From: Lysobacteraceae bacterium PS02340
GTDB lineage: Bacteria > Pseudomonadota > Gammaproteobacteria > Xanthomonadales > Xanthomonadaceae
NCBI GenBank assembly: GCA_029959605.1
Contig: JASCOC010000007.1
Location: forward strand, 1-64,000
DNA: 64,000 nucleotides
Direction of reading: 5' to 3'
Both the position numbers and the translations under genes were made by a program. Positions 18,711 through 36,008 of the stretch are shown here, in pieces. A model generated the notes under the pieces. The model had not been told where the DNA came from. It did not search any database and saw nothing but the letters and a program-made list of their open reading frames with translations. Positions within the stretch are counted from its first letter, which is position 1, and each line of letters starts with the position of its first letter.

Positions 18711-19580
18711 ATGCGGATATCGGTCGTACTGCCAGCAAAGAACGAAGCCGATGGTCTTCGGCGGACGCTGCCGGCGTTGATCACGCTGTTTCCGGAGGCG
18801 GAGGTGATCGTGTCGGACGACGGTTCCACCGATGCCACTGCTGCGGTCGCGCGGGAAGCAGGGGTGCGCGTGGTGAGCGCCCCATATTCGATGGGCAACG
18901 GCGCTGCCATCAAGCGGGGCGCGCGGGCAGCCACGGGCGAGGTGATCGTTTTTATGGACGCTGACGGGCAGCACGATCCGGCGCACATCGCCGCGCTGCT
19001 CGCACCGCTGGGTGCCGGTTTCGACATGGTAGTGGGCGCGCGCGACGCCTCTGGCCAGGCAAATCGGGGCCGTGGCCTGGCGAACGACTTCTACAACCGG
19101 CTCGCCAGTTGGATGACCGGGCATCGCATCGCCGATCTCACTTCTGGCTTTCGCGCGGTACGCGCCTCGAAGTTCCGCGAGTTCCTGCACTTGTTGCCCA
19201 ACGGGTTTTCATATCCCACGACTTCGACGATGGCGTTCTTCCGCAGTGCCTATCCGGTCGCCTACGTACCGATCTCTGTACACACGCGTATCGGTCGAAG
19301 CCACATCCGGCCTATTCGCGACGGTATCCGGTTCCTGTTGATCATCTTCAAGATCGCGACCCTGTACTCGCCGGTGAAATTGTTCGCACCCGCATCGTTG
19401 GGCTTTGCCACGCTCGGCGTCGCGCACTACGGGTATACGTTTGCGACGTCGGGTCGCTTCACAAACATGAGCGTACTGCTCCTGAGCGCAGCTGTGATCG
19501 TATTTCTGATCGGTTTGATTTCCGAACAGATCACCAATCTGACCTATCTCTCCACCAAGCAAACAGATGGCCCGGGTTGA
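18711..19580 (+). CDS. GT2 family glycosyltransferase (DPM/polyprenyl-phosphate type)
   Basis: The 289-residue product has an N-terminal GT-A fold: ISVVLPAKNEADGLRRTLP, SDDGSTDATAAV, and the metal-binding MDADGQHDPAHI. Two hydrophobic segments follow near residues 215-265. This layout fits enzymes that transfer a sugar to polyprenyl phosphate or extend a membrane-bound glycan. ATG 18711 has GGGGAG upstream and starts the family's MRISVVLPAKNE. It is the first gene of the plus-strand unit facing away from pilB; the acceptor is unknown. Confidence 0.85.
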   Translation: MRISVVLPAKNEADGLRRTLPALITLFPEAEVIVSDDGSTDATAAVAREAGVRVVSAPYSMGNGAAIKRGARAATGEVIVFMDADGQHDPAHIAALLAPLGAGFDMVVGARDASGQANRGRGLANDFYNRLASWMTGHRIADLTSGFRAVRASKFREFLHLLPNGFSYPTTSTMAFFRSAYPVAYVPISVHTRIGRSHIRPIRDGIRFLLIIFKIATLYSPVKLFAPASLGFATLGVAHYGYTFATSGRFTNMSVLLLSAAVIVFLIGLISEQITNLTYLSTKQTDGPG

Positions 19581-19593
19581 GAGTGGTGCAGCG

Positions 19594-20733
19594 ATGACCG
19601 CTGACGTGGACGCGCTGGTACTTGTCGGAACAAAAGCCCAATACATCAAGACGGCGCCGCTCCTGCTGGAGTTCCGCCGAGTGGGCCTCCGCTATCGCCT
19701 CATCTACACCGGACAACATTCCGAGACGTTCGCGGAGCTCGAGCAGGCGTTCGGCCTTCCAACCGCCGACGACAACATGGTGCCGGACAATGAAGCCGAC
19801 AGCGCCGGCGGCATCGTGCAGTGGGCGATCGCGTTCTGCATCGCGGCCTTCCAGCGGATCCGAAAAAGCGAGTGGCGCGGCGCGCGCTGGGGCGTGGTGC
19901 ACGGGGATACCGCCTCGACGCTGCTCACGGCGGTCGCGCTGCGGATCGCCGGCGTCCCTGTCGTGCACGTCGAAGCGGGCCTGCGATCGCCGCAGTTGCT
20001 GAATCCGTTCCCCGAAGAGATCATCCGCCGGCTCGTCTCGCGGATCGCGGTAATGCACTGCGCGCCGGACGTGCGCGCGATAGCGAATCTTTCGGGCGTA
20101 GGTGGTTCACTCCTCGACACTCGCGGCAACACAATGCTCGACGCGTTGCGCTTCGCGCTCGAGAAGCAGGCCGAAGGCCGCGATACCGGTGGAGATGGTG
20201 GCTATGCCATTGCTACCATGCATCGCAGCGAGAACCTGGCAAGTCGCGCGACTATGGACAGCCTGCTCGATGCGATCGTGGCAGCGTCGAAAGCGCTTCC
20301 GGTCTGGTTTGTCCTGCATCCGGTGACACGTCGAAAGCTCGCGAAGACGGGCTGGCTCGAGAGGCTCGAAAGAGAGCCCGGCATCCGGCTGACACCGCGC
20401 AGCGACTACGTGACGTTCGTGGGCACGATGCTCCGCAGCCGTTTCCTGCTGACCGATGGCGGTAGCAACCAGGAGGAGGCGGCACTGCTCGGTCTGCCGA
20501 CCCTGCTGCTGCGGTCTGCCACCGAGCGGCGGGACGGCTTGGACGGTGGTTGCGTCGAGATGTCGGGTCTCGATCCCGACGTCATCGCGCGATTCGTCGA
20601 ACGGCACCGCGACGGTGCATGGCGGATCCGCGCGCTGCCGCCGGAGAGGCCGAGTGCAGTGATCGCCGCGGCACTGCTCGGGTCTCAGGCCAGTGCGGCG
20701 CGCACCAGTGCGTCCAGCGTCGATCCCGCCTGA
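19594..20733 (+). CDS. UDP-N-acetylglucosamine 2-epimerase family protein
   Basis: The 379-residue product belongs to the WecB/NeuC-like GT-B superfamily. The acidic and nucleotide-site motifs VHGDTAST, HVEAGLRSPQL, PEEIIRRL, TMHRSENLA and TDGGSNQEEAALLG are present. The usual N-terminal GTRPE is replaced by GTKAQYIKTAPL, so nucleotide contacts may differ and the substrate is uncertain. ATG 19594 was chosen; ATG 19567, inside the preceding gene, is also in frame. The last 49 nt overlap the convergent glycosyltransferase gene. Confidence 0.8.
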   Translation: MTADVDALVLVGTKAQYIKTAPLLLEFRRVGLRYRLIYTGQHSETFAELEQAFGLPTADDNMVPDNEADSAGGIVQWAIAFCIAAFQRIRKSEWRGARWGVVHGDTASTLLTAVALRIAGVPVVHVEAGLRSPQLLNPFPEEIIRRLVSRIAVMHCAPDVRAIANLSGVGGSLLDTRGNTMLDALRFALEKQAEGRDTGGDGGYAIATMHRSENLASRATMDSLLDAIVAASKALPVWFVLHPVTRRKLAKTGWLERLEREPGIRLTPRSDYVTFVGTMLRSRFLLTDGGSNQEEAALLGLPTLLLRSATERRDGLDGGCVEMSGLDPDVIARFVERHRDGAWRIRALPPERPSAVIAAALLGSQASAARTSASSVDPA

Positions 20734-21773
20734 TCCCACGTCGCGCGCGGCGGATAGATGGGCGTTTCGCCGGTGCGCCGGAGCCACGTGACGATGCGCC
20801 CGGCGATTTCGTCGGCATCGCCGACTGCCGCCAGATGGGACGGGTCACCACCGAGGATCCACTCGACGGGCTCCGTTCTCGTGGCCACAATCGGAACGTC
20901 GCAGGCCATCGCTTCGTAGAGCTTCGACGGATAGCTGCCGCGCCCGAACGCAGTGTCGGCCGTGACGACGCAGGCGACGTCGATCGCTCTAAGGAGATCC
21001 GGCATCGCGTCGTCCGGGAGGTAGCCCGTCGCGATGACGTTCGCGCGACCCGCCACATCCGCAGGCGGCTTGCCGCTGACCACGAAGCGCGCGTCCGGGA
21101 CCACCGTGCCGACGCGCGAGAACACATCCGTCAGAAGCTCCGTGCCGCGCTGGACGGACCAGCCGCCCGTGTACCCGACGAGCGGACGCTCCTGCGGAAG
21201 GCCGAGCCGCGCACGTGCCGCCACCCGCTCGCCGGGCTGGAAAGCCGGATCGGCCGACATCGGAACGATGGCCGTCCGCGTCGCACCAGCCCGTCGGTGA
21301 CGATCGAGATGTGCCGCGAGTTGCGGCCCGGCCGCGGTGACCAGAAGTGCATCGCGGATCGACCGGCGCCACGCGAGATGCAGTGGGACATTCCACGGCA
21401 TGTACGACTCGTAATCGTCGTAGGCGTCCACGGCGTGCGGCACACCGCACGCTCGACCGAGCCGGGCGGCGAGCCAGCCGTACCAGGCGTCGGACATGCC
21501 GAAGACGAGGTCCGGACCGAACGCGAGGGCCTCTTCGACCAGGGATCGGTACCAGCCGAGCGGGCCGGCGCGCCGGATATCATGCGTCGAGCGCACCACG
21601 CCCGCGTCCTGCTCGCGCACGTCCTCGCTTCCGGAGTGACTGCAGAGCAGCACCCGGACGTGGTGGCCGAGATCCGCGAGCGCTGCCGGGAGATGGTGGA
21701 AGCGCCCGTAGGGCCGGGACACGAGGTCGCGTTGTTGGGGAGAACGCTTGCCGACGAAGAGAATGCGCGCCAA
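20685..21773 (-). CDS. GT4 family glycosyltransferase
   Basis: The 362-residue GT-B protein has an N-terminal MARILFVGKRSPQQRD, a mid-protein nucleotide-sugar region with LVGYTGGWSVQRGTEL, and a C-terminal donor-site segment YEAMACDVPIVATRTEP. Such enzymes are usually retaining and use nucleotide sugars; donor and acceptor are unknown. It is transcribed alone on the minus strand, diverging from the GT2 gene at 21869 across a 95 nt gap, and overlaps the epimerase-like gene tail to tail. Confidence 0.85.
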   Translation of the reverse strand: MARILFVGKRSPQQRDLVSRPYGRFHHLPAALADLGHHVRVLLCSHSGSEDVREQDAGVVRSTHDIRRAGPLGWYRSLVEEALAFGPDLVFGMSDAWYGWLAARLGRACGVPHAVDAYDDYESYMPWNVPLHLAWRRSIRDALLVTAAGPQLAAHLDRHRRAGATRTAIVPMSADPAFQPGERVAARARLGLPQERPLVGYTGGWSVQRGTELLTDVFSRVGTVVPDARFVVSGKPPADVAGRANVIATGYLPDDAMPDLLRAIDVACVVTADTAFGRGSYPSKLYEAMACDVPIVATRTEPVEWILGGDPSHLAAVGDADEIAGRIVTWLRRTGETPIYPPRATWDQAGSTLDALVRAALA

Positions 21774-21868
21774 GGGATCGCTACCATTGAGCGGAAGATG
21801 CCGCGGATCAGGGCGACATCATCCTCGTTTCGAGACCACTGCGGGCGCATCGGCGCCGGTTGGATGAC

Positions 21869-22909
21869 ATGACACCCAAACTATCGATCTGCATCGCCAC
21901 CCGTAATCGCGCACCGTACATCGGTGCGGCACTCGAGGCGTTGTTGCCGCAATGCGGTCCCGGGGTCGAGATCGTGGTGGTCGACGGTGCATCGACCGAC
22001 GGTACCGGCGACGTGGTGCGTGCGTTGCAGGCGCGATATCCCTGTATCCGCTACGTCTTCAAAGAGAAGAATGGCGGGATCGATCGCGACTTCGACCAGT
22101 CGGTCGTCGAGGCGGCGGGCAAATACTGCTGGCTGATGTCGGACGACGATGTGCTCGCACCGCACGCTGTCAGGACCGTTCTTCGTTACCTGGAGACGGC
22201 GCCGGCCCTCCTGATCGTGAACTCCGAGCTGCGCGACTCGGAGCTGCGCGTGCTCATCGACCCGGACCGGATGCGCTCGAAGCAGGACCGCGTCTACGCG
22301 GTGTCGGACTTCCAGCGACTGTTCGAAGAGATGTCTGGGTATCTCTCCTATATCGGCGCAGTGGTCATCCGTCGCGACATCTGGACAGCCGCGCCGCGTG
22401 ATCCATACTACGGATCGTTCTTCGTGCACGTTGGCGTGATCTTCCGGGACACGCTGCCAGCTCCCGTGATCGCGATTGCGGAGCCGCTGGTCACCGTGCG
22501 CTTCGGCAATACCCAGTGGCGGCCGAGGGAGTTCGAGATCCGGATGGTCCGCTGGACGGAGCTGGTCGCGAACCTGCCCGCCGTCGACGAAGCCGTCCGA
22601 GGGAAGACCTATCGGGCTACGCCTTGGACCAGCACCAAGAGCCTCTTCTTCTATCGTGCGAAAGGCACGTATGGCTGGGCTCAGTACGCGCACTGGGTTC
22701 GTCCAAGGGTGAGCAGAATTCACGACCGCCTGCGTGGTGCAGCCATCGCCTTGTTTCCGGGCGTCCTCGCGAATCTCGTCGGACTCGTGTTCTGCAGCTT
22801 CCGGTACCAGGATTCGAACGTGCATTTTCTCGACATGAAGGTCAGCAGGTTCTACCTTCCGAATCTTCTCGAATCCATGCGCAAGCCGGCCGGTCGCCGG
22901 GAAGGGTGA
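21869..22909 (+). CDS. GT2 family glycosyltransferase (abequosyltransferase-like)
   Basis: The 346-residue product shows a GT-A core (KLSICIATRNRAPYIG, VVVDGASTDGTGDVV, YCWLMSDDDVLAPHA) and a long C-terminal part. It resembles O-antigen deoxysugar transferases by overall pattern. The ATG at 21869 gives the family start MTPKLSICIATRN; a TTG nine bases upstream is in frame. It opens the unit with the methyltransferase and SDR genes, consistent with transfer of a modified deoxysugar, which is inference. Confidence 0.8.
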   Translation: MTPKLSICIATRNRAPYIGAALEALLPQCGPGVEIVVVDGASTDGTGDVVRALQARYPCIRYVFKEKNGGIDRDFDQSVVEAAGKYCWLMSDDDVLAPHAVRTVLRYLETAPALLIVNSELRDSELRVLIDPDRMRSKQDRVYAVSDFQRLFEEMSGYLSYIGAVVIRRDIWTAAPRDPYYGSFFVHVGVIFRDTLPAPVIAIAEPLVTVRFGNTQWRPREFEIRMVRWTELVANLPAVDEAVRGKTYRATPWTSTKSLFFYRAKGTYGWAQYAHWVRPRVSRIHDRLRGAAIALFPGVLANLVGLVFCSFRYQDSNVHFLDMKVSRFYLPNLLESMRKPAGRREG

Positions 22910-22915: not shown

Positions 22916-24178
22916 GTGTCTGAGATGATCGCGGCAGGCAGTTACGTCGAGATCGACCGTTGCCGGATCAGCGGCAGCCGTCATCTGGTCTCCGTGCTGG
23001 ATCTCGGCGAGCAGTGCCTCACCGGCATCTTTCCCAAGACCCCGGCGTCGCCGGTGACGAAGGGGCCGCTCGAGGTGGTCTGGTGCCCCGACAGTGGCCT
23101 CATGCAGCTGAAGCATTCGTACAGCCTCCCGGAGATGTACGGCGAAAACTACGGGTATCGCTCCGGGCTCAACGCGTCGATGGTCGCCCACCTCGAGGGC
23201 AAGGTGCGTGGGCTCGAACGCCGGAAGGCTCCGGTCGCCGGAGACGTCGTGCTGGATATCGGCAGCAACGACGGCACGCTGCTGAAGTCGTACGCGACGC
23301 CGGGACTCGTGCGCGTGGGCATGGATCCGACGTCGAAGAAGTTCCGGGAGTACTACCCGGCCGACGCGATCGTCGTCGAGGACTTCTACAGCGCGGATGC
23401 ATTCCTCGCGGCGACGGGCTCTCGCAAAGCACGCGTGATCACGTCGATCGCGATGTTCTACGACCTCGAGGATCCGAATGCGTTCGTGTCGGACATTGCG
23501 CGTTCGCTGGCGCCGGACGGCGTGTGGCACTTCGAGCAGAGCTACATGCCCGCGATGTTGCGGACGAACGCCTACGATGCGGTCTGCCACGAACACCTGG
23601 AGTTCTACTCGCTCGGCGTCATCGATCGACTCCTCGCAGCCCACGGATTGCGCGTCCTCGACGTACAGATGAACAGCATCAACGGCGGAAGCCTTGCCGT
23701 GACGGCGTGCCATCGTGATTCGAGCGCGGTCGGCGAGGGTGGTATCGTGCGTTGGCTCCTCGAACAGGAAATCAACTGGGGCTTGGACACGCCGAAGCCG
23801 TACCGGCAGTTCGAGGAGCGGGTCTTCAAGCATCGCGCTGACCTGCGGCGCCTGATCGAAACGCTCGTGAGCGATGGCAAGTCCGTCCTCGGCTACGGCG
23901 CTTCGACCAAGGGCAACGTCCTGCTCCAGTTCTGTGGATTCGACGCGACGCACATTCCCGCGATCGCCGAGGTGAACCCCGACAAGTTCGGTGCATACAC
24001 GCCCGGGACACTGATCCCGATCATCAGCGAGGCGGAAGCGAAGGCGCTCAAGCCGGATTACTTCCTTGTGCTTCCTTGGCACTTCAAGTCCTCGATCGTG
24101 CAGCGTGAGCGGGATTTCCTCGCGCAGGGCGGGAAGCTGATCTTCCCGATGCCCGAGATCGAGATCGTGGGCGACTGA
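22916..24178 (+). CDS. SAM-dependent sugar C-methyltransferase-like protein
   Basis: The 420-residue product has the three-part architecture of NDP-4-keto-sugar C-methyltransferases: an N-terminal zinc-type domain, a central Rossmann domain (VVLDIGSNDGTLLKSY), and a C-terminal domain with VLGYGASTKGNVLLQF. The N-terminal domain normally holds two CxxC knuckles; here they read CRIS and CPDS, so the second Cys of each pair is Ser. GTG 22916 or ATG 22925 could be the start. The stop overlaps the next ATG (TGATG). Confidence 0.8.
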   Translation: MSEMIAAGSYVEIDRCRISGSRHLVSVLDLGEQCLTGIFPKTPASPVTKGPLEVVWCPDSGLMQLKHSYSLPEMYGENYGYRSGLNASMVAHLEGKVRGLERRKAPVAGDVVLDIGSNDGTLLKSYATPGLVRVGMDPTSKKFREYYPADAIVVEDFYSADAFLAATGSRKARVITSIAMFYDLEDPNAFVSDIARSLAPDGVWHFEQSYMPAMLRTNAYDAVCHEHLEFYSLGVIDRLLAAHGLRVLDVQMNSINGGSLAVTACHRDSSAVGEGGIVRWLLEQEINWGLDTPKPYRQFEERVFKHRADLRRLIETLVSDGKSVLGYGASTKGNVLLQFCGFDATHIPAIAEVNPDKFGAYTPGTLIPIISEAEAKALKPDYFLVLPWHFKSSIVQRERDFLAQGGKLIFPMPEIEIVGD

Positions 24179-25113
24179 TGCGTGCGGTGATCGTCGGCGC
24201 CTCCGGACAGGATGGCTTGCTGCTCGGAGAGCACCTGCGCGCATCCGGTGTCGAGGTGCTGCCGGTCGGCCGGTCCGATGGATCCGCCTCCGGCGTGGAC
24301 ATTGAGGATCCGAGCCAGGTCGAGCGCGCAATGTCGACGTTCCAGCCCGACGAGGTGTACTACCTCGCGGCGCATCATCACAGCGCGCAGCAGACGATCG
24401 ACGACGCCGCCGAACTCCGCGCGCGCAGCTGGGCGATCAACACACGCGCATTCGAGGAACTCCTCGCGGTCACGGTGCACCTGCCGAAGCGGCCCGCGGT
24501 GTTCTATGCATCGTCGTCCCGCATCTTCGCGGGCACTGCCGACGGTCTGAAGGACGAACGAAGCGCAAGGGCGCCGACCTGTGCCTACGGACTGTCCAAG
24601 GCTGCGGCGATGGAGGTCGCGGCGTTCTTCAGAAGGACACATGGACTGCGCGTCGCCTGCGGGATCCTGTTCAACCACGAATCACGGCTGCGCAAGCCGC
24701 ACTTCGTCTCCAGGCGTGTCGTGGATGGTCTGATGGCCGTGCAGCGTGGAGAAGCAGAAACGCTAGAACTCGGGAACCTCTCGGCAAAAGTGGACTGGGG
24801 CTTCGCGCCTGACTACGTCCGCGCAATGCGGCTCATGCTCGCGCAGCAGGAGCCGCAGGATTGCGTCATCGCTTCGGGTGAGGCGCACAGCGTCCGTGAA
24901 ATGGTGGAAGTCGCAGCCGATCTGCTCGGCGTGCGCTGGCAGGACTGCGTGGTCGAGAACGGCGGACTGCTGCAGCGGCCGCCACTCGCGCACGTGGGCG
25001 ATGCATCGCGTCTGCGCGAGACGACAGATTGGAACCCGACGCTGGACTTCCACGGACTCGTCAGGCGACTCGTCGAGGATGCGCTCGCTGAGCGAGGCGC
25101 CAGGCTTCAGTAG
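24178..25113 (+). CDS. GDP-mannose 4,6-dehydratase-like SDR protein
   Basis: The 311-residue extended SDR begins with the NAD(P)-binding AVIVGASGQDGLLLGEHL and carries the catalytic pattern FYASSSRIFAG ... YGLSKAAAMEVA. It resembles GMD/RMD enzymes ([18 protein letters not shown] is GMD-like) but is shorter than the gmd product at 28302-29411 and lies in the other transcription unit. It may be a 4-keto reductase or a second dehydratase acting on the GDP-sugar. It overlaps the upstream gene by 1 nt. Confidence 0.8.
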   Translation: MRAVIVGASGQDGLLLGEHLRASGVEVLPVGRSDGSASGVDIEDPSQVERAMSTFQPDEVYYLAAHHHSAQQTIDDAAELRARSWAINTRAFEELLAVTVHLPKRPAVFYASSSRIFAGTADGLKDERSARAPTCAYGLSKAAAMEVAAFFRRTHGLRVACGILFNHESRLRKPHFVSRRVVDGLMAVQRGEAETLELGNLSAKVDWGFAPDYVRAMRLMLAQQEPQDCVIASGEAHSVREMVEVAADLLGVRWQDCVVENGGLLQRPPLAHVGDASRLRETTDWNPTLDFHGLVRRLVEDALAERGARLQ

Positions 25114-26435
25114 CGCCCGTTCCGGATGGCGGTCTTCAGAGTGCGCCAGAACAGCACGAGTGGCAGGCCCGTGGCCAAGAGATACGTGGCGGTAGTCACC
25201 CATGGAATCCAATCTGTTCCCAGATTCGAGACAGCCCAGATCTTGGCCACGAAGCACGCGATCGCGAAGGCGACGGACGTGACGACCTGGTAGCGCAGCA
25301 CGCTGGCGGCGTTCAACAAGGCCGCGACGGAGTTGCCGGCGGCTTCAAGTACACACCAGACGACGAAGCCGCCGAGCAGAAGCGTGCTCGCGACGGGCAT
25401 GATCGACAGCCAGAGCGTGCCGATCGGACGGAATGCAATCGCGATGATGCCGGCTCCAGCGAACGCGAAGCCGACCGCGGCGAGCGTCGTCCAGCGGAAG
25501 GTTCGACTCGTCCAGGCGAGATCCCGCTTCGCGAGCGACTGTCGGTAGACGGGCCACAACGGTGCCCAGAGCAGCGTCAACGCCAACGGCACGACCGAGA
25601 ACACACGCTGCACGATGGCGTATTCGCCTGCGCGTTCCGCGCCGAGGATCGCCGTGATGAGAGGGAGGTCGGACATGAAGGCGAGGGCCATCGCCAGCTG
25701 GAGCAGGAAGAACGCGAATCCTTCCTCGCGAATCCTTCGAGACGTGGATCGCAGCGCAGCCGGCTCCGGTGACGTCGCGTTCCTGATGTCTCCACTCCGC
25801 CAGAGATGGAGCGTGTTCGCGGCGGCGGCGAACACCGGCGGCAGGACGGCCGCCGCCGTCAGCGTGGCGAGCGATGGCACAGTGGAGGCCACGATGGCCA
25901 CGGAAGCCAGCGCGCCCAGGTGACCGGCCGCCTGCCAGCCGAACGCAACGCTGCCCTCTCCGAGACCCAGCCGGATCCTCGCGGCGAGATTGAGGGGCAC
26001 GGAAGCCACGATCGATGCGACGACGACGAACACGGCCGGGCCGACATCGACGATGCCGACCGAGTCGACGCCGAGCCAGTCCCGCCAGGGTGCAATGAGT
26101 GCGATCGCCGTAAAGACGACGGCGGACAGCATCGCGATGAGAGTGAGCGTCGCACTGCCCGCCCTGAGGACGGTCGCGACCTCACCGTGTGCCTGCCGCG
26201 CGTGCGCGGAGGCAGCCAGGTTCATCGCGCCATTGCCGAGTCCGAAGTCCAGGAAACCGGTGAGCGTCACGAATGACACGAGGGTCGCCCAAAGACCGAA
26301 CTCCACCGCGCCGAGCGCGTGCAGCGCGAAGGGCAGCGACACGAAGAGGTTCGCTGCCGCGCAGATCTTCGCGACAAGTGACCAGGAACCCGACAGGGCC
26401 AGCACGCGTCCCCGTGGTCCGATCAGCGACCTCAT
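25107..26435 (-). CDS. Wzx-type polysaccharide flippase
   Basis: The 442-residue, very hydrophobic protein has about 12 predicted membrane segments with the MATE-like pattern of Wzx/RfbX O-unit transporters, which move polyprenyl-linked glycans to the periplasm. No Wzy polymerase or WecA-type initiating transferase is seen nearby. Its ATG overlaps the stop of the upstream gene by 4 nt, and its 3' end overlaps the convergent SDR gene by 7 nt. Confidence 0.85.
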   Translation of the reverse strand: MRSLIGPRGRVLALSGSWSLVAKICAAANLFVSLPFALHALGAVEFGLWATLVSFVTLTGFLDFGLGNGAMNLAASAHARQAHGEVATVLRAGSATLTLIAMLSAVVFTAIALIAPWRDWLGVDSVGIVDVGPAVFVVVASIVASVPLNLAARIRLGLGEGSVAFGWQAAGHLGALASVAIVASTVPSLATLTAAAVLPPVFAAAANTLHLWRSGDIRNATSPEPAALRSTSRRIREEGFAFFLLQLAMALAFMSDLPLITAILGAERAGEYAIVQRVFSVVPLALTLLWAPLWPVYRQSLAKRDLAWTSRTFRWTTLAAVGFAFAGAGIIAIAFRPIGTLWLSIMPVASTLLLGGFVVWCVLEAAGNSVAALLNAASVLRYQVVTSVAFAIACFVAKIWAVSNLGTDWIPWVTTATYLLATGLPLVLFWRTLKTAIRNGRY

Positions 26436-27352
26436 GGAGCGGGTTCGACCCGGCCGGACACCACGTCGTGGAGAGGGAGTCCGCGGATGGCACGCTTGCG
26501 TGCCTCGTGGTCACCATGATCGAGTCGCCCTTCCGCGTCGCGTCCATCCCGGAATTTCGGCGCGGTGAAACCTGCCGTAGCCGTCAAGGTGGCGAAGTCG
26601 GGCCGATCGGCGAACGCTTCGAGCAGGAAGTAGGCATTGTTGCCGGCGCTGTTGGTGCCGAGGAACGCGTAGCCGCGTGCTGCGGCCAGGTGTCGCAAGG
26701 CCAGCAGCGACGTGCCGAAATACTGGCCCGAGGCATGGGCGGACAGACGGTCGAAATCGTCGGCATAGGGAATCGAGACGGGACGCTCGTTGCCGAGCGA
26801 AGCGTTGTACTCCACGACGACGATCGCGGGACGCGCGCACGTGACCGCTTCCCACAGCCAGTAGTCGTTGCCGTCCACGTCGATGTGCAGCAGCCCCAGC
26901 TCGCGTTCGCCGAGCCACTGTCCGATCTCGGTGTCGACGTTGTGGCGGGTCAGGAAGCGGGGCAGTGCGGTGAGGTCGTAGCGCCAGTACCACGGGCGAC
27001 TTCGGAGCCGGGCCATGTTGCGCTCCGACCCGTCCATGACCAGTCCGCTCCAGTTATCGTTGACCAGCAGGAAGCGGGTCGTGGCTTCCATGTAGTCCTC
27101 GACGCCAAACTCGACGAACGTCTTCGGGATCTCCGGGAGCCGGGAGACGAGCCACTGGAGGATGCCGTCGTCGCCGAACTGCGAGAACACCCGGAACTCG
27201 AGTTCGTGGAGCGACGCAGGCGACTGGATCGCGCGCACCTGCGCGCTGCGGATCGAGCCGAGCAGCGCGCGCGTCTCCTCGGCCTCCTGGCGACCCTGTA
27301 TCCAGTCGCGCACCGCGCGGTATGGTCCGACGAGCCGTGCTGTGAAGCTCAT
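26432..27352 (-). CDS. FkbM-like putative methyltransferase
   Basis: The 306-residue soluble protein has [36 protein letters not shown] and [17 protein letters not shown], which together look like a Rossmann methyltransferase of the FkbM type. FkbM proteins O-methylate sugars or similar hydroxyls, but the match is by pattern only and the function is unproven. It lies between fcl and the flippase, with 4 nt overlaps at both ends. Confidence 0.6.
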
Positions 27353-28293
27353 GTCGCCTCCGGGCCCTGTCGCGACTCCACGAACCAGCGATACGTCTCG
27401 GCGAGACCTTCCTCGAGCGACCGGCGGGGCTTCCAGCCCGATGCGCGGAGACGCGACGAGTCGAGCAGCTTGCGTGGAGTGCCGTCCGGCTTCGTGGCGT
27501 CGAAGACGAGCTCGCCGTCGAACCCGACAACGCGTGCGACCGTCCGCGCGAGCTCCGCAATCGAAACCTCCTCGCCGGAACCCACGTTGGTCAGCTCGCC
27601 GCACTCCGGCTGCCGCATCAGGAACACCAGGGCGTCGGCCAGGTCGTCCGCGTGCAGGAACTCGCGGAGCGGCATGCCGGTGCCCCAGATCGTCACGCTG
27701 CGCGCGCCGGCCAGCTTCGCCTCGTGGAAACGCCTGATGAGCCCCGGCACGACATGCGAGGTCTCGGGATGGAAGTTGTCGCCGGGACCGTAGAGGTTGG
27801 TCGGCATCGCGATCACGGATTCGTGTCCGTACTGCAGGCGATGGGCCTGGCAGAGCTTCAGGCCTGCGATCTTCGCGATGGCGTACCACTCGTTCGTGGG
27901 TTCGAGCGGCCCCGTCAGCAGCGCATCCTCGCGGATCGGCTGTTCGGCCAGCTTGGGGTAGATGCAGGACGAGCCGAGGAACGCCAGCCGTCGTGTCCCG
28001 TTCCGGAACGCGGAGTCGATGACGTTGGTCTGGATGGCGAGGTTGTCGCGCAGGAACTCGGCAGGCCAAGTGGAGTTCGCATGGATCCCACCGACGCGCG
28101 CCGCCGCGAGGAAGACATGGTCGGGTCGGACCTCCGAAAAGAAGACTTCGACCGCGGCCTGGTCCGTGAGGTCCAGTTCGGCACGGGTGCGCGTGATGAC
28201 GTGCGCGAAGCCCTCCGCCGCCAGGTGGCGGACGATCGCCGCGCCGACGAGGCCCCGATGGCCCGCCACGAAGATACGTGAGTCGAGGTCCAC
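27349..28293 (-). CDS. fcl: GDP-L-fucose synthase
   Basis: Converts GDP-4-keto-6-deoxy-mannose to GDP-L-fucose by epimerisation and NADPH reduction. The 314-residue SDR shows [18 protein letters not shown], the catalytic [31 protein letters not shown], and [20 protein letters not shown] at 28293 gives the family start ([13 protein letters not shown]) and leaves an 8 nt gap after gmd. Together with gmd it should supply GDP-L-fucose, or a related GDP-6-deoxysugar if the other enzymes intercept the keto intermediate. Confidence 0.93.
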
Positions 28294-28301: not shown

Positions 28302-29411
28302 CTATTCGTGCGGCTGCGGCAGTCTGTAGCCGGACCTGGCGACGAGATCCTCGCGGCTCGCGTCGACGAGATCGGCTTCGACCATTTCGCGAACCAGCTC
28401 GGCGAACGTGGTCTTCGGCACCCAGCCGAGTCGCTCTCGCGCCTTGGTGGCGTCGCCCAGCAGCGTCTCCACCTCGGCGGGCCGGTGGTAGCGCGGATCC
28501 ACCACAACGATGGTCGCGCCCGGCTTCACTTGTGAATCCGCCGGCGCGGTCGCCACCACGCCGCGCTCGGATGCACCCGCGCCTTCCCACGTCAGCGTCA
28601 TGCCCAAGACCTCTGCCGCATGGGTCACGAAGTCGCGCACCGAGTACTGCACACCTGTAGCAATGACGAAGTCTTCGGCGCGCTCCTGCTGCAGCATGAG
28701 CCACTGCATCTCGACGTAGTCGCGGGCATGGCCCCAGTCGCGAAGTGCGTCCAGGTTGCCGAGATACAGTCGGTCCTGGAGGCCCAAGTGGATGCGCGCG
28801 AGCGCTCGGGTGATCTTCCGGGTCACGAACGTCTCGCCGCGTCGCGGCGATTCGTGGTTGAAGAGGATGCCGTTGCAGGCGTACAGCCCGTATGCCTCGC
28901 GGTAGTTCACCGTGATCCAGTAGGCGAACAGCTTGGCGACGCCGTACGGCGATCGCGGATGGAACGGCGTGCGCTCGGTCTGCGGCGATTCGGCCACCTG
29001 GCCGTAGAGCTCCGAGGTGCTGGCCTGGTAGAAGCGCGTCTTCTGCTCCAACCCGAGGATACGGATCGCCTCCAGCAGGCGCAGGGTGCCCAGGCCATCC
29101 GCGTTCGCGGTGTACTCCGGCGTCTCGAACGATACCTGCACGTGGCTCTGCGCGCCCAGGTTGTAGATTTCGTCCGGCTGCACCTGCTGCAGGATCCGGA
29201 TGAGGTTGGTCGCGTCGGTCAAGTCGCCGTAGTGCAGCGTGAAGCGGCGATCCTGCTCGTGCGGACCCTGGTAGAGGTGGTCGACGCGTTCCGTGTTGAA
29301 CGACGACGCGCGGCGCTTGATGCCGTGCACGTCGTAGCCCTTCGCGAGCAGCAGTTCGGCGAGGTAGGCCCCGTCCTGGCCGGTCACGCCTGTGATCAGT
29401 GCGGTCTTCAT
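28302..29411 (-). CDS. gmd: GDP-mannose 4,6-dehydratase
   Basis: First step from GDP-D-mannose to 6-deoxyhexoses. The 369-residue product starts [20 protein letters not shown] and contains the catalytic STSELYGQV, the [19 protein letters not shown]yr/Lys pair, and [19 protein letters not shown]. It is the first gene of the minus-strand unit gmd-fcl-FkbM-like-flippase. A weak TAGACT lies close to the start codon (29416-29421), but no -35 is convincing. Confidence 0.95.
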
Positions 29412-29849: not shown

Positions 29850-30793
29850 AAGGGGCGAGGGAAGCCGAAAGAATGTTCGCGAAGCACGCGTCACTGGGCG
29901 CAAGTTTTGCTGCGTTCTGACTAAATTCGACTACAAGCGCTTGTTCGGTCATCACGTTTCATGCGAATTTCGCATTCTAAGAGTCAAGTATTGCGACATC
30001 GGGATCCGCCTCCAAGGCGGCCAAGAAAGCGCGAAGAATTCGAGCGTCGTCGAACCAGCACGAATAGCGGATACGGGTCTTTCAATACACCGTGAAGCGC
30101 GCCGATCTGTTCCGGACCCGCGCGGCCGTCCGACAATCTCTCGCGGAACCTGTCCCGCACCGTCGTCGGCAGTTGGCGGCCTGACGTCGACAGCATCTGC
30201 TCGGTCGCCTGTGCGGGCAACGGGGAGCGCGAAGGAAGTCGACTCGCATGCTCGAATTGTCACCGCCGTGGCGTGAAGCGGCAAAACCTTATTGCAGGCG
30301 CACTGCGCCATCAGCATTTCGAGGCAGTAGCTTGCCTTTAATAATCTCGGATTGCGGAGGTGGCGCGCAAGGCGGAACCGATCCGTCCATATAGGCGCCT
30401 GCAGTTCAAAGAGGGTTGCGAGCACGATGGCAGGCGTCGTAGCGAGTGTGCGTCGCGACTCCAAGTCGAGTGTCCGTGTCAGCGCTCTGGGCACTAGGCC
30501 GACCACGAGCGCAATGCCGAGCAATGCCAGGTAGGTCCAATGTTCGAAGACGAGTTGCGGTGGCACCACATTACTGGTGAGCGCATGTGTCGGAGAGAAC
30601 CATCCGATACCGAAACCGATCAACGCGAAGCGACGGCGCGACCATCAGCAAACAGGGGTCGCTGACAACCAGAAAACCGACAAGCGTCGAAGACGGCGAC
30701 CGCAGGTCCTGTGTAGATCGGAAAGCTGTAGTAGTAGAACGTCAGTCGATCGGGAAGAGGGCAAGACCTGGATGAGGTGAAGCGAGCATTGCG
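29850..30793 (-). pseudogene. Decayed second copy of the GT-C/TPR glycosyltransferase gene
   Basis: Translated fragments in changing frames match the intact gene next to it (30837-32795). PDRLTFYYYSFPI matches PDRLVFYYDNFPI; LTSNVVPPQLVFEHWTYL matches LTSNVVPLELAFEHRNYL; AFLAALEADPD matches TFIVALDRNPD; NAAKLAPSDACF matches EAVALAPNDAQF. Frame changes lie near 30750 and 30200, and a stop codon lies near 29978. The N-terminal half is missing. The remnant begins within about 50 nt of the intact gene's stop, so it looks like a tandem duplicate. Confidence 0.75.
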
Positions 30794-30836: not shown

Positions 30837-32795
30837 TCAATTTTTACGAGAAGTCTGCATCCGGGCAGATTGCGAACTGCAAGCTTTGCGTCCCAGTTCA
30901 ATCTCACGGAGATCGTCCGCATAGGTGCCGTCGCGATTGGCGGCGCGCACGGTCGCGACCAAGCTTTCCCACTCGGGTTCGTGCTGAGGTAGGCAAACAA
31001 TCATGCGTGCAAGATTAGCCCTGAACTGCGCGTCGTTCGGCGCGAGCGCGACTGCTTCTCGCATCATCGCTGTGCCCAAGTCTGAATCTTGCAGAACCGT
31101 GTAGGCGAACGTCGCATAGATCGAATGCAGTCGAGCAGAATCAGGATTGCGGTCGAGCGCGACGATGAAGGTTTCGAACAATGCTTGTGCGTCGAGCGGG
31201 CATTGTTCTAGTTGCCGGCAGTTCGCCAGCTGCCACAACGCGCCCTCCGCTTCGGGGGTAAGCAAATACGCGGCGTACTTGCGCTGCAGGCGCGGCCAGA
31301 TGTCCTCCGGAAGCGGCGTGCCGTCGCGGGCGTGCATGATGATCAGGGCCTGTTCGGGCAGCGGTGAGCGCGCGCCCAAGCGGGCGGCATGCAGGAACTC
31401 CTCCCGGGCGAGGCTCCAGCTGGGACTTTGTGTGTCATCACGGCTTTGTTCGAACAGCTGGCGTCCCAGCGCGTACGACGCGCGGGCTGATTCGATGTTG
31501 CGGCCTGCCAGCGAAGTTGCCAACCGCATGGGGTCGGCCCAGGTCATCACCTGCAAGGTAGTCAGCGTGACTGTAGCGACTAGAACCACCGCTACCAGAG
31601 TGACGCATGCGTCGAGATGCAGGCGGCGCAGGACGCGCGTGCTGACTTCGGCCAAAACCAGCAGCACGCCAAGCAGTGCCAAGTAGTTTCGGTGTTCGAA
31701 TGCGAGTTCAAGCGGCACTACGTTGCTGGTCAGCAGATGCCCTACGAAGAACCACGCGATGCCCAATGCGGCCAACGGGTAGCGTCTTCTGCAGAGCACG
31801 ACCGATGCGGCGAGTCCTGCAAGGATGGTCCAGGCGATCAGTGTCCAGGCAGGTGTCAGCAATCCGCGTGAGATCGGGAAGTTGTCGTAATAGAACACCA
31901 GCCGGTCGGGCACTGGCAGGAGAATCTGGCTGAGGTAGTGCACCAGCACCGGGCCTTGCGTCAGCAGGCGCTGCTGGAGATCGAACTCGCGAAACGCAAA
32001 GCGTCCGGGAGCGGAAAAATACGGCAACACCACAAACGCGAACACCAGACCGGCCGAAATTGCCACGCCTGTGAAGAGGAGTTTGAGCCAGCGGGACACC
32101 CGATCGGGACCGGCGAACTGCAACACGCAGATTTCGATGCAGGCAATGAAGACAGGCGCCAGAACCGCTGATTCTTTGAAGCCCAAGCCGGCTAGAGTGG
32201 CTAGCGACGCAGCGACGAACCAGGTCCAGCTCCGTTGTCCGTCCATCTGGCGTCGACGACCCTGCATGTACGCGAGACAAGCCAGCAGAATTCCGGTTGC
32301 GGCACCGATTTCCATCCGCTGCACGATGTACAGCACCGTGGAGACCTGTAGCGGATGGATCGACCAGAAGGCTGCAACACAGGCGGCGAACAGTGAGTCA
32401 CGCTTGGCAGTCGCGCCATGGCGGGCAGGGATGAATCCCACAAGCATGCGCACGAGCAGGAAGACCAGCACCGTGTTGAGGGCGTGCATGGCCACATTCG
32501 TCAGCTTGAGTGCTGACGGGTCGGGGCCAGCGCGCAGGTGATCCAGCGCGAACGACAGGAGAGCAAGGGGGCGGCCGCCTAAGCCCGAGAACCCGTTTCC
32601 AATCGCTTCGCGCAATCCGTCTAGCGTCAAGGTCGTCAGACGCCAGTGGGGATCGCTGACGAGGTTCGGATAGTCGTCGAAGAGGAACCCACCGCCCAGA
32701 CCGCCGCTGAAGACGACGAATGACAGCAGAATCAGCAGGGCAGCTGCGCTTAACGAAAATGCGCGACCCGGGATGGCGGATATGTAACGGGACAT
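30837..32795 (-). CDS. GT-C membrane protein with C-terminal TPR region
   Basis: The ~652-residue protein has about ten membrane segments followed by a soluble alpha-helical TPR-like C-terminus. The first loop after the first membrane segment holds FLFDDYPNLVSDPHW, the acidic pair typical of GT-C/TMTC-like glycosyltransferases that use polyprenyl-linked sugars in the periplasm. ATG 32795 starts MSRYISAIPGRAF; ATG 32885 is also in frame. It lies downstream of pilA, with a decayed pilin between. A role in pilin glycosylation is inference. Confidence 0.7.
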   Translation of the reverse strand: MSRYISAIPGRAFSLSAAALLILLSFVVFSGGLGGGFLFDDYPNLVSDPHWRLTTLTLDGLREAIGNGFSGLGGRPLALLSFALDHLRAGPDPSALKLTNVAMHALNTVLVFLLVRMLVGFIPARHGATAKRDSLFAACVAAFWSIHPLQVSTVLYIVQRMEIGAATGILLACLAYMQGRRRQMDGQRSWTWFVAASLATLAGLGFKESAVLAPVFIACIEICVLQFAGPDRVSRWLKLLFTGVAISAGLVFAFVVLPYFSAPGRFAFREFDLQQRLLTQGPVLVHYLSQILLPVPDRLVFYYDNFPISRGLLTPAWTLIAWTILAGLAASVVLCRRRYPLAALGIAWFFVGHLLTSNVVPLELAFEHRNYLALLGVLLVLAEVSTRVLRRLHLDACVTLVAVVLVATVTLTTLQVMTWADPMRLATSLAGRNIESARASYALGRQLFEQSRDDTQSPSWSLAREEFLHAARLGARSPLPEQALIIMHARDGTPLPEDIWPRLQRKYAAYLLTPEAEGALWQLANCRQLEQCPLDAQALFETFIVALDRNPDSARLHSIYATFAYTVLQDSDLGTAMMREAVALAPNDAQFRANLARMIVCLPQHEPEWESLVATVRAANRDGTYADDLREIELGRKACSSQSARMQTSRKN

Positions 32796-33063
32796 CGAAC
32801 GGTGCGCTAGCTGCAGGAGCGACGACGATAGCGCGGGTTGGGTTCTTATTCTTGATTCAAGGCTACACTTGTTGCGCATATCCAAAGCGATGAGATCACC
32901 CTAGCGCCATGGCTCTCCATCGCCATTGCGAAGCAGTTGTTGAAACGAGCTTCGTTTCCAACGAGGTTGGTGAAACAGGACGATCACGAACTGGCTGTGG
33001 AGAAGCAAGTCTCATTGCCGCGTGGTAGCTCAATCTTGCGCCGTGACTCCGTGGGCACCCGCC
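32796..33063. other. Gap between the GT-C/TPR gene and the pilin remnant
   Basis: No intact gene is seen. A hairpin GAAACGA (32942-32948) / TCGTTTC (32952-32958) with loop GCT lies here. Confidence 0.5.
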
Positions 33064-33219
33064 CTCGGCGAGCTCGGCGCCGCCGCCGATGACCAGGCTT
33101 TCGGCCACTTGGCCGTATGCAATGCGGTGCTGGGGCGCGGTCGGCGCGAGAGAGGTCAGTACGGGAATAAGCGAAATGAGGGTGCTCCGTTCGATCAGCG
33201 CAAATCCTTTCGGGCGCAT
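33064..33219 (-). pseudogene. Degenerate type IV pilin remnant
   Basis: Starting at ATG 33219 the frame reads MRPKGFALIER, matching the prepilin cleavage and Glu5 pattern KGFTLIELM of pilA. QVAESLVIGGGAELAE follows and parallels [18 protein letters not shown]. The hydrophobic N-terminal helix is interrupted by charged and Pro residues, and the C-terminal half is not recognisable. It lies 95 nt downstream of pilA and is best explained as a decayed tandem pilin. Confidence 0.6.
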
Positions 33220-33271
33220 TAGTTCCTTGCATGACAGACCCCAACGCGCCATGGGTTGCCCAGAAAGAACG

Positions 33272-33313: not shown

Positions 33314-33742
33314 TTAACGGCAGGAGCTCGGGCGGTACTTCGCAGCGATCGAACCGGCGCAATTCCAGGAAATGCTGCCGCCCTGATCGGTGGGCGTCAG
33401 GGTCAGATCGTTGGCCTTGATCTTCGCGCTCGTTGCCGTCTTGTTGTACGCGACGGTGATCACGCCGTTGGTGCCGATGGTCGTGCTCGACACGTACTTG
33501 CCGGTGATCGACCCGGCGGCAGCGACGCCAGCTGCGGCGTTCGTGCCCGGCCACGCTGCATAGTTGGCGTAGTACTCCGCAATGGCGGTCTTCGCGCCAG
33601 CCGAAAGGCTCATGCCTTCCGTCACCTGCGAGCGGGCAACGTAGTCCTGGTAGGCCGGCAGCGCGATGGCGGCCAGGATGGCGATGATCGCAACGACGAT
33701 CATCAGTTCGATCAGGGTAAAGCCCTTCTGCAGCGTCTTCAT
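33314..33742 (-). CDS. pilA: Type IV major pilin PilA
   Basis: Structural subunit of type IV pili, used for twitching, adhesion and DNA uptake. The 142-residue prepilin has a 7-residue leader (MKTLQKG) cleaved by PilD before Phe, the conserved [19 protein letters not shown] helix with Glu5, and a C-terminal disulfide loop formed by Cys128 and Cys141 ([16 protein letters not shown]). The frame is open upstream, but ATG 33742 gives the canonical leader and has AGGGG nearby. A sigma-54 promoter and two operator-like repeats lie upstream. It is placed with glycosyltransferase genes instead of between pilB and pilC. Confidence 0.95.
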
Positions 33743-33838
33743 GGTGTATCCCCTAGGAGTGGAAGATTTCACGTGCCTCGGGCCCGGCGGGTGCCGATCC
33801 TTGGACGGCCGTGCAGGAGCACGTGCGGGTTCGTTCAC

Positions 33839-33853
33839 GCAGGATGCGTGCCA
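33839..33853 (-). promoter_or_regulatory. Sigma-54 promoter of pilA
   Basis: On the minus strand the sequence reads TGGCACG-CATC-CTGC, matching the RpoN consensus TGGCACG-N4-TTGC at all but one position with GG-N10-GC spacing. It lies about 100 nt upstream of the pilA ATG. PilA genes in Pseudomonas and Xanthomonas are RpoN/PilR-dependent, which fits. Confidence 0.85.
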
Positions 33854-33893: not shown

Positions 33894-33941
33894 GTGACGC
33901 GCAAAGTCACTTGGGGCAGCTGAGGTGACCCACTGCGTCAC
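33894..33941. promoter_or_regulatory. Two GTGAC-N7-GTCAC operators upstream of pilA (putative PilR enhancer)
   Basis: Perfect 5 nt inverted arms occur at 33894-33910 (spacer GCGCAAA) and 33925-33941 (spacer CCACTGC). The sites are 31 bp apart, about three helical turns, and start about 40 bp upstream of the -24 element, the usual place for an enhancer of a sigma-54 promoter. The first overlaps the stop codon of the upstream GT-C gene. The same half-sites recur upstream of pilR. Confidence 0.7.
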
Positions 33942-35754
33942 TCTTCCGAAGGCCTGCTCCGCCCAAGCGCTCGATAGCCAGTTGGCGTTGAGGCGGCGAG
34001 GCCTCGTTCAATGCGCACATCCAGGCAACTTCCGCTTCCTGGGGGCGCTTGAGCGCCAGCAGCAGATCACCGGCGTGGATGAGGTAACCGGGCTCGGCCG
34101 GGCGCAGTCGAAGAGCCTGTGCCGCGGCGGCCAAGGCGTCTTCAGTCCGCCCACCGCCTTCGAGCGCCAAACTGAAGTTGTGCCAGACCTCGTGTCGATC
34201 CTGACGAAATTCCACTGCGCGTTCGAAGGCCGCAATCGCGAGATCCCACCGTTGCTCTCGAACGGCTAGGTATCCCAGCAGTTCATCCACGCCGGGTGTG
34301 CCCGGCGGTTGCGCTTGCAGAATCGCGCGGGCTTTGTCTTCTTGTCCGGACTTCAGGTAACCCCAAGCCAGTCGCGTCCAGTCGCTCGGGAATTCAGGAA
34401 TCAAGAGGCGGGCCTGCGACAGCGTCCAGGCGCCAAGCAGGCTCGTGATGAGGATGCCAGCCGCGATTGAGCGCCATTGACGTGTCGCAAGGGCTCTCCA
34501 GAGCGCATCGATCCAGATCCCCGTGCCGACAACAAAGGGTGCGATCACATTGAAGCGGAAGCGGTCTTCGGCGAAGAACACGGCGAGCGTCAGCGCACCC
34601 ATCGCAAGTGGTGCGAGCAGAATGATTCCGCGGCTGTCACGCCATGTCAGAAGCGCAAGACCGGGAATTCCGAGCGCGAAAAGCCAGCCGAATGGCAGGG
34701 GAAGCGCGTGCAGCAAGGGAGAGACGATGCGCTCGTCCACATAGTTGCGGGTGTTGGGCACCTCGGGATAGGCGCTCGCCTCCCGGAGCTTGCGAACCGC
34801 GTTGCCGACGCTCTGGAGGCGGTGCGACTCGATGTAGGTGGAGGCCTGTTCTCGCCAATACGCATCGACCGCCTGAGGCGTCAGGCGGGTGCCTGCTCTG
34901 CGCTCAGCCTCGGCACGATAACCGTCCCAGATCTCCCCTGGTGCGGAGTAGCGGCCCACGAAGCTTGGCACGCCGGCACGGCCTTCCGGATTCTCCACAT
35001 TGTAGATCTGGTGCAGCACGATGCCGCCGTTGTTGGGCATCGGCGAGTACTTTTCGGAAATGGCGGCATTGCGGGCGACCAGTAGAAACAGCGGCATCGC
35101 CAAGCCTGCAAGCAGGCAGGCTGCGCCCAGAGAGATGGCCTTGGGCGTATCTCCTTCACGCCATCGGAGCCAGCCGGCGCAAAGCAGTGCGAGCGGCGCC
35201 ATCAGCAGCAGGTTCGCTCGAAGCGCAACGCCAATTCCACACAGCACACCGAATCCGAGCCAGTTCGCCAGGCGACCGTTCCTACAGAAACTCAGTGCGC
35301 CATACATCCACCAGACGACGAATGCCGCCACCCAGGTGGCCTTGAGCAGCGCCATCGTGTAGGCAATGGCTGTTCCGGTAATGGCGTAGACGAAGATCGC
35401 GATCAGCCCGGCGCGAGGTCGTCCGAGCAGCGCTGCGATCCTGTACATGCCGTACGCACTCAGGCAGTCGACTGCGATCTGGAGAACGTAGATCGGGAAC
35501 GCGCCCGCGCCGAGTTTCAGGATCGCGCCGAGCAGGTAGGCGTAGAGAGGATCCATGAAGGCCCATCCGTCCTGCAGGCCGCCCGAGCCGAAGGCTACGT
35601 CGTGGGCAAAGCGCCAGTAGAAGTCTTCATCGGCGCCCATCTGCCAGGTCAAGGGGCCGGCAAGCGCGTACTGCATATGCAGCAGGCGCAGCAAAAGCAC
35701 GCACGCCAGCGCAAGCATCAAGTTCCGACGCCCAACGGGCTGGTCGCTAAACAT
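33907..35754 (-). CDS. GT-C (GT39/ArnT-like) glycosyltransferase with C-terminal TPR
   Basis: The 615-residue protein has about ten to twelve membrane segments. The first periplasmic loop contains GADEDFYWRFAHDVAFG, the acidic motif seen in ArnT/PMT-type transferases. The C-terminal ~150 residues are TPR-like (LLGYLAVREQRWDLAIAAFE, ALRLRPAEPGYLIHAGDLLL). It lies directly upstream of pilA on the same strand, between pilR and pilA, so it is a good candidate for modifying the pilin, by analogy with TfpO/TfpW-type enzymes. The acceptor is not proven. Confidence 0.75.
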   Translation of the reverse strand: MFSDQPVGRRNLMLALACVLLLRLLHMQYALAGPLTWQMGADEDFYWRFAHDVAFGSGGLQDGWAFMDPLYAYLLGAILKLGAGAFPIYVLQIAVDCLSAYGMYRIAALLGRPRAGLIAIFVYAITGTAIAYTMALLKATWVAAFVVWWMYGALSFCRNGRLANWLGFGVLCGIGVALRANLLLMAPLALLCAGWLRWREGDTPKAISLGAACLLAGLAMPLFLLVARNAAISEKYSPMPNNGGIVLHQIYNVENPEGRAGVPSFVGRYSAPGEIWDGYRAEAERRAGTRLTPQAVDAYWREQASTYIESHRLQSVGNAVRKLREASAYPEVPNTRNYVDERIVSPLLHALPLPFGWLFALGIPGLALLTWRDSRGIILLAPLAMGALTLAVFFAEDRFRFNVIAPFVVGTGIWIDALWRALATRQWRSIAAGILITSLLGAWTLSQARLLIPEFPSDWTRLAWGYLKSGQEDKARAILQAQPPGTPGVDELLGYLAVREQRWDLAIAAFERAVEFRQDRHEVWHNFSLALEGGGRTEDALAAAAQALRLRPAEPGYLIHAGDLLLALKRPQEAEVAWMCALNEASPPQRQLAIERLGGAGLRKSDAVGHLSCPK

Positions 35755-35918
35755 CGAGTAGTCCCGTCGCCCGGTGGCGGACGGGGAGCGTCGCGGTCTG
35801 CGTCGGCCTTGTCAAACCATTACGCAGCACTTTGTAAGTGCGTGAAGGATCGAGGGCCGGCATCTTTCGGTCCCATCCAGCAGCCGGCCGATCGGTCCAC
35901 AAGCCCTAGGCGACGCTA

Positions 35919-35956
35919 GAACATTGCATTCGGTTTGCGCCGTTACCGCAATGTTC
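35919..35956. repeat. Spaced inverted repeat in the pilR-GT-C gap
   Basis: GAACATTGC (35919-35927) and GCAATGTTC (35948-35956) are perfect 9 nt arms separated by 20 nt, in the 254 nt gap between pilR and the GT-C gene. No T-run follows, so it is more like an operator or RNA hairpin than a terminator. A lone TTGACA on the minus strand (35810-35815) has no matching -10. Confidence 0.5.
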
Positions 35957-36008
35957 GCTACCCCCAGCAACTGCGATCCATCAAGTCGCACAAGCGCAAC
36001 TGGCGCAC

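Follow-up and report, generated by a model that had tools for sequence, protein, structure and literature searches.

A variable gene island around pilA in Lysobacteraceae bacterium PS02340 as a probable modular pilin-glycosylation locus

Between the pilus genes pilB and pilR, Lysobacteraceae bacterium PS02340 carries an island of sugar-nucleotide enzymes, glycosyltransferases (GTs) and membrane proteins that surrounds pilA, the gene of the major pilin. What is such a set of genes for at this site? The window analysed, the whole 64,000-nucleotide stretch at positions 1 to 64,000 of contig JASCOC010000007.1, lies on contig 77 of a genome of 3.70 Mb (G000). A preliminary description had suggested that the island makes a lipid-linked glycan that a GT-C membrane enzyme could transfer to PilA. 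The island probably represents one version of a modular locus for pilin glycosylation, in which a GT encoded beside pilB (GT2a) primes the glycan, the exchangeable genes in the middle (the cargo) build and flip it, and a GT-C protein encoded beside the pilin gene transfers it. The observations behind this reading concern gene content, predicted folds, co-occurrence, pilin linkage and differing cargo.

Two GT-C membrane proteins, GTC682 and GTC615, had been placed on either side of pilA, and their AlphaFold2 models confirm the assignment: both show GT-C folds of the OST/PMT type, with TPR tails. When chains ranked by Foldseek were re-aligned with VIA-align 2, the folds nearest to GTC682 were Pmt4, OST/Stt3, AglB and PglB, and those nearest to GTC615 were AglB (the best), OST, ArnT, PglB and Pmt4. 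Judged on the models, both proteins resemble protein glycosyltransferases, and GTC682 is likely a pilin glycosyltransferase. GTC615 matched the PMT_2 family (PF13231; 33.1 bits, above the cut-off of 26.1), and the same family matched neither GTC682 nor 31 of its relatives. The domain Wzy_C (PF04932), which marks the PglL, TfpO, TfpM and PglS families of O-oligosaccharyltransferases, was matched neither by GTC615 nor by 32 members of the GTC682 family. Sequence searches of the PDB returned TPR proteins for the GTC682 alignment and, among the best 60 of 223 matches, for that of GTC615. Homology between the membrane domains of the two proteins was considered and dropped, the profile comparison having aligned the TPR part only. 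GTC682 may also resemble the eukaryotic TMTC proteins; no TMTC model was among the Pfam matches. Pmt4 uses monophosphate donors, and OST and PglB use pyrophosphate donors; because the fold matches include both kinds, it is GT2a that must speak for the type of donor.

GT2a is likely a lipid-phosphate sugar transferase-like protein and, on its sequence, a candidate for the initiating enzyme; the earlier view that the island has no initiating transferase is therefore probably wrong. In a PDB sequence search, GT2a resembled ArnC (9hwj, E 4.6e-14) and dolichol-P-mannose synthase (5mlz, E 2e-11), and its top NCBIfam match was AglJ (TIGR04182; 117.8 bits, below the curated cut-off of 325). Two transmembrane (TM) segments are predicted, giving a GtrB/ArnC/Dpm-like GT2 with a membrane anchor as in Gtr systems, and the motifs are conserved among 52 homologues. 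No initiating transferase of family PF02397 was found in the PS02340 genome.

GT2a and GTC682 behave as conserved bookends. Of 31 sampled genomes of the genus, 8 have a relative of GTC682, and in seven of these eight a GT2a at least 74% identical lies at the pilB end, the exception being genome G009. Among 299 genomes of the order, GT2a was found in 143 and GTC682 in 153; both were present in 140, GT2a only in 3, GTC682 only in 13 and neither in 143. The GT2a proteins of the other 142 order genomes are 57–81% identical to that of the window. Distances between the two genes, taken from 30 hand-picked genomes, placed them on one contig in 27, at most 16 kb apart in 26 and 720 kb apart in one. 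A wider protein search gave at least 1575 members of the GTC682 family from 8000 scored candidates, and a genome scan confirmed 388 loci, 80 of which were analysed, Stenotrophomonas and Xanthomonas loci among them. The stretches stored for these loci reach 10 kb beyond the match or as far as the contig does, genes were called and TM segments counted by simple custom rules, and GT2a was counted at >45% identity; the loci overlap with the genus and order samples (for example, L079 probably corresponds to G042, L081 to G013, L092 to G019 and L113 to G044). GT2a is present in 52 of the 80 loci, and in 33 of the 34 whose stored DNA holds a pilB match. Two Pseudomonas loci (P. toyotomiensis, L116, and P. 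chengduensis, L117) have the order pilin–GTC682–GT2a, likewise adjoining pilB, with GT2a directly downstream of the GT-C gene on the same strand.

The other end is linked to pilins. A pilin gene lies within 1 kb of GTC682 in 61 of the 80 loci and within 3 kb in 72; of the remaining eight, six have no visible pilin, and in two it is 4.0 and 4.4 kb away. As in the TfpO and TfpW cassettes, the transferase gene is directly linked to the major pilin gene. It is from this linkage that we infer pilin to be the acceptor. A C-terminal serine was considered as a shared acceptor and rejected, because the pilins beside GTC682 have C-terminal classes that are unlike by eye. A short pilin class, with RSAN or RSAE after the N-terminal helix, occurs in six loci (L146, L148, L153, L157, L050 and L054), with the GT-C family unchanged. 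GTC615 is a second GT-C of the pil locus and is rare, being found in 6 of 247 family genomes (PS02340 included) and in 2 of the 80 GTC682 loci. It directly adjoins pilR in the four relatives with enough DNA (L172–L175), a fifth, on a 3.3-kb contig (G352), falling outside this count; it adjoins pilR in Luteimonas deserti and strain NML91-0213 too.

What lies between the bookends differs from island to island. In the window, the sugar enzymes named in the preliminary description (gmd, fcl, an extra short-chain dehydrogenase/reductase (SDR) and a C-methyltransferase) all found matching families, fcl slightly under its cut-off, as did the three cytoplasmic GTs; a UDP-GlcNAc-2-epimerase-like gene had been overlooked. 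A modified 6-deoxysugar made by gmd, fcl and the C-methyltransferase is plausible. The label "FkbM-like" for a 306-aa protein lacks support, since Pfam and NCBIfam scans of it were blank. That the island has no polymerase agrees with the failure of Wzy_C to match any of its scanned proteins; a Wzy_C protein is encoded elsewhere in the genome, on another contig. The cargo of L. deserti comprises an aminotransferase, an ATP-grasp protein, methyltransferases, Wzx, an SDR and GTs, and that of NML91-0213, among the frames scanned, a GT4, a GNAT acetyltransferase and an FAD oxidoreductase. Two of the smallest islands keep GT2a, GTC682 and pilins: in Luteimonas sp. 9C the space between the second pilin and GT2a holds just a methyltransferase and a PF03706-like membrane protein, and in Xanthomonas sp. 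LMG 31884 the cargo is a PF03706-like protein and a GT4. Among six other partly scanned islands, a further GT was found in five (L055, L078, L098, L116 and L140) and none in L084.

One place in the cargo appears to be filled in two ways. The flippase proposed for the window is only partly borne out: about ten TM segments are predicted and the protein matches the NCBIfam Wzx-like model NF041503, but the match is weak (E 1.9e-6, 27 bits; cut-off 300) and no Pfam family was matched. A profile iterated from the L. deserti Wzx reached it at E 2.5e-8. Across 53 islands (the window and the 52 loci with both bookends), a PF03706-like protein occurs in 27, a Wzx-like protein in 18 and both in none, leaving 8 unassigned; one or the other is thus present in 45. 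Eleven of the Wzx-like assignments come from the iterated L. deserti profile, the window's own included, and seven from Pfam; those in L086, L153 and L157 lie below the Pfam cut-off. The chance probability of zero overlap is 2.4e-8 (4.9e-8 without the window). On a tree of the 53 GT2a proteins the flippase type changes 11 times, at least seven of them via well-supported branches, and 11 times also without the window; the type is not confined to one clade. The simplest reading is that PF03706-like and Wzx-like proteins fill the same step, export of a lipid-linked sugar; a flippase role is suggested for the PF03706-like proteins because they never occur together with a Wzx-like protein. PF03706, the TM region of lysylphosphatidylglycerol synthase, occurs in MprF and in archaeal AglD; examples here, all below the Pfam cut-off, are L084:12305-13402, L140:12578-13495 and L098:13015-13980.

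From these data we infer enzyme activities, donor lipid, acceptor residue and glycan structure as parts of a single scheme. GT2a would place the first sugar on undecaprenyl phosphate (Und-P), while gmd, fcl, the SDR, the C-methyltransferase and the epimerase-like enzyme would supply sugar nucleotides, probably a GDP-6-deoxyhexose, perhaps C-methylated, and a 2-epimerised UDP-sugar. The cytoplasmic GT4 and GT2b could then lengthen the chain, the flippase would turn the lipid-linked glycan outward, and GTC682 would move it onto PilA, either ahead of pilus assembly or in the course of it. GTC615 may attach one more sugar or act as a second pilin transferase at another site. The earlier proposal of transfer to PilA by a GT-C is strengthened by the pilins within 3 kb in 72 of 80 loci and by GT-C models that resemble protein glycosyltransferases, and in its entirety is partly supported.

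Several observations weigh against this reading. In 28 of the 80 loci no GT2a is seen; 27 of those stretches have no pilB match, and the remaining one, L128, does have pilB. At the cut-off used, 13 of the 153 GTC682 genomes of the order lack GT2a, and the Fisher p of 6e-65 for co-occurrence comes from a statistic that ignores kinship. G009, whose GTC682 relative is 33–34% identical, has no GT2a. No common site is obvious in the pilins beside GTC682, which by eye divide into several dissimilar classes at the C terminus. Several putative flippases have Pfam matches that fall short of the curated cut-offs. On the tree the flippase label shows some clustering, the 11 changes comparing with a shuffled mean of 14 and with 22–28 of 500 shuffles as low. 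An initiator other than GT2a is possible, since the PS02340 genome encodes a WecA-like enzyme (L160) on another contig. Two gene remnants (Table 1) show the locus to be partly decayed in the window.

The rival explanations concern the same genes. GT2a and GTC682 might form a three-component system that passes a single Und-P-linked sugar to pilin, the remaining cargo building a separate glycan or decorating the sugar. The ArnC/Dpm-like character of GT2a fits this, as does the small island of Luteimonas sp. 9C, which has no other GT; yet the window has two further GTs, five of the six other partly scanned islands have at least one more, and 18 of 53 islands hold Wzx-like proteins, a type that is associated with oligosaccharides. 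Known three-component systems employ Und-P-sugar, a flippase and a GT-C (PMC11127046), which speaks for the single-sugar reading. We regard this alternative as unlikely, though the most credible of the three.

A second possibility, that the cluster serves O-antigen or exopolysaccharide synthesis and is in the pil locus only incidentally, draws on gmd, fcl, a wecB-like gene and a Wzx-like flippase, all typical O-antigen genes. It is improbable: Wzy_C was unmatched among the scanned island proteins, whereas a Wzy_C protein and the WecA-like enzyme are encoded on other contigs, and the GT-C keeps its association with pilins from genus to genus, with differing cargo. An O-antigen-only cluster was rejected because the pilin linkage spans genera and the Wzy_C protein lies elsewhere. 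We give slightly less credence again to the idea that the GT-C proteins are accessories of pilin assembly, in a TfpY-like role, and not glycosyltransferases. TPR tails do suggest protein binding, and P. aeruginosa has pilin cassettes with a non-glycosylating accessory protein (PMC11841053); but both folds are GT-C, close to PMT and OST enzymes, and GTC682 co-occurs with a lipid-sugar transferase. A modular pilin-glycosylation locus remains our preferred reading.

Table 1. Features of the pilB–pilR interval; positions are those of the window
Feature	Position	Strand	Basis and remarks
pilB	16846..18570	-	interval border
GT2a, polyprenyl-phosphate sugar transferase-like GT2	18711..19580	+	Pfam GT2; two predicted C-terminal TM helices; bookend adjoining pilB
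UDP-GlcNAc 2-epimerase-like (WecB-like) gene	19567..20733	+	PF02350, E 7.9e-51; TIGR00236, 168.7 bits (below cut-off 210)
GT4-type glycosyltransferase	20685..21773	-	PF13692, PF13579
GT2b glycosyltransferase	21860..22909	+	PF00535; NCBIfam matches all below cut-off
Sugar C-methyltransferase-like (Methyltransf_13/14)	22916..24178	+	PF08421, PF08484
Gmd-like SDR, extra sugar-nucleotide enzyme (GDP_Man_Dehyd/Epimerase)	24178..25113	+	PF16363; gmd profile 172 bits (below cut-off 415)
Probable Wzx-like flippase	25107..26435	-	NF041503 below cut-off; iterated L. deserti Wzx profile; about 10 TM
306-aa protein	26432..27352	-	no Pfam or NCBIfam match; FkbM-like in the preliminary description
fcl, GDP-L-fucose synthase-like	27349..28293	-	NF047922, 494.9 bits (cut-off 500); PF01370; exact start uncertain
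gmd, GDP-mannose 4,6-dehydratase	28302..29411	-	TIGR01472, 583 bits (above cut-off 415)
Degraded remnant, second GT-C of the GTC682 (682-aa) family	29881..30784	-	tblastn pieces, E 1.5e-28 with the L. deserti protein
GTC682, TPR-tailed GT-C membrane enzyme	30837..32795	-	open frame from 32885; ATG at 32795 likely
Degraded remnant, second pilin gene	32932..33222	-	42% identity over 88 aa to L. deserti PilA2, E 8e-14
pilA, major pilin	33314..33742	-	PF00114 (Pilin), PF07963 (N_methyl)
Sigma54-promoter-like site upstream of pilA	33837..33853	-	exact pattern match; weak: 2 matches against 2.5 expected by chance (at most 1 mismatch)
GTC615, PMT_2-type GT-C with TPR tail	33907..35754	-	between pilR and pilA
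pilR	36009..37454	-	interval border

Both border genes and the place of pilA within the island are as first described. From left to right the order is coaE, pilD, pilC and pilB (all on the minus strand), the island, pilR and pilS, where coaE, pilD and pilC are putative names given by position; the promoter-like site was matched with a sigma54-promoter pattern. The G+C content of third codon positions is 0.71–0.74 in GT2a, GTC682 and GTC615, and 0.85–0.88 in pilA, pilB, pilD and pilR (0.80 in pilC); gmd, fcl and the C-methyltransferase, at 0.85–0.88, are not lowered. A foreign origin is possible. The two remnants, both missed in the preliminary description, lie between pilA and GTC682 (a pilin) and between GTC682 and gmd (a GT-C), the latter matching GTC682 relatives in several pieces at E about 1e-28. 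L. deserti (L078) has an open second pilin frame at the place matching the pilin remnant. An earlier, fuller arrangement of the locus has thus probably been lost in part.

Comparison with relatives, which had been proposed as a check, shows the pilB–pilR interval to be a hypervariable locus, differing in size and content. PilB was found in all 31 sampled genomes of the genus, PS02340 included (as a 37% paralogue only in G006, and partial in G007 and G017), and PilR in 29. In 25 genomes, PS02340 again among them, pilB and pilR stand in the usual order on one contig, from 965 bases (G041) to 40.5 kb (G011) apart; G041 and G004 (1024 bases) have a single pilin each between the two. The pil locus is rearranged in G001, where pilR now faces coaE-pilD-pilC-pilB (L046), and in G045, where pilR and pilB are about 1.1 Mb apart (L075/L076); in the other four genomes the two genes lie on different contigs or only one of them is present. 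The G011 interval of about 40 kb (L068–L070) holds open frames of 1404, 1686 and 2277 aa, none matching the island proteins of the window. The closest sampled relative by PilB (G009, 95%) has mostly other genes in the interval. A one-time insertion was rejected because the interval varies across the genus; the "inserted" island is correctly located, but the word is imprecise.

The comparison with relatives points to a widespread kit for placing exchangeable sugars on pilin, of which this island would be one version; the module is present in about half of the sampled Lysobacterales genomes (GT2a in 143 and GTC682 in 153 of 299). If the reading is true, protein glycosylation would gain a new class of GT-C enzymes, the pilin glycans would form a natural library of interchangeable structures, and the assignment of PF03706-like proteins to the lipid-sugar flippases could be put to the test. 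Phages use type IV pili as receptors, and in P. aeruginosa the glycosylation of pilin helps the cell to evade such phages (PMC11841053). More tentatively, and with somewhat less than even confidence, we suggest a widespread, undescribed system of Lysobacterales and some other Gammaproteobacteria, with a TPR-tailed OST/PMT-like GT-C, glycans primed on undecaprenyl monophosphate instead of the pyrophosphate, fixed bookends (GT2a on one side, the pilin and the GT-C on the opposite one), interchangeable cargo and a single flippase slot, Wzx-like or PF03706-like, the latter a new class of lipid-sugar flippase. No description of a GT2a/GTC682 module was found in the available portions of the open-licence literature on pilin glycosylation.

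Known systems share single elements with this arrangement. The archaeal N-glycosylation pathway AglJ–AglB is echoed by the best NCBIfam match of GT2a and the best fold match of GTC615; the AglJ match is below cut-off and the AglB likeness one of fold only, and N-glycosylation is not implied. The O-oligosaccharyltransferases PglL, TfpO, TfpM and PglS place lipid-linked glycans on pilins or other proteins (PMC12645811), as is proposed here, but GTC615 and the 32 GTC682-family members differ in having no Wzy_C match. The three-component Gtr systems (GtrA, GtrB and a Gtr GT-C) also combine an Und-P-sugar synthase, a flippase (putative in the window) and a GT-C-fold transferase (PMC11127046); there the acceptor is O-polysaccharide, whereas here it would be pilin, and the further GTs of the window and of five of six partly scanned islands set them apart. 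GtrB/GT-C systems are already known, as are pilin cassettes that include a transferase of their own (TfpO, TfpW). The novelty seems to lie in the way a GT-C class with neither Wzy_C nor a named membrane-domain family is combined with conserved bookends, differing cargo and a flippase slot of two types. A parallel in layout is offered by the P. aeruginosa cassettes, in which the pilin gene is followed by a dedicated glycosyltransferase gene, TfpW adding D-Araf homopolymers and TfpO O-antigen units (PMC11841053); the island of the window differs in also holding a sugar-assembly set.

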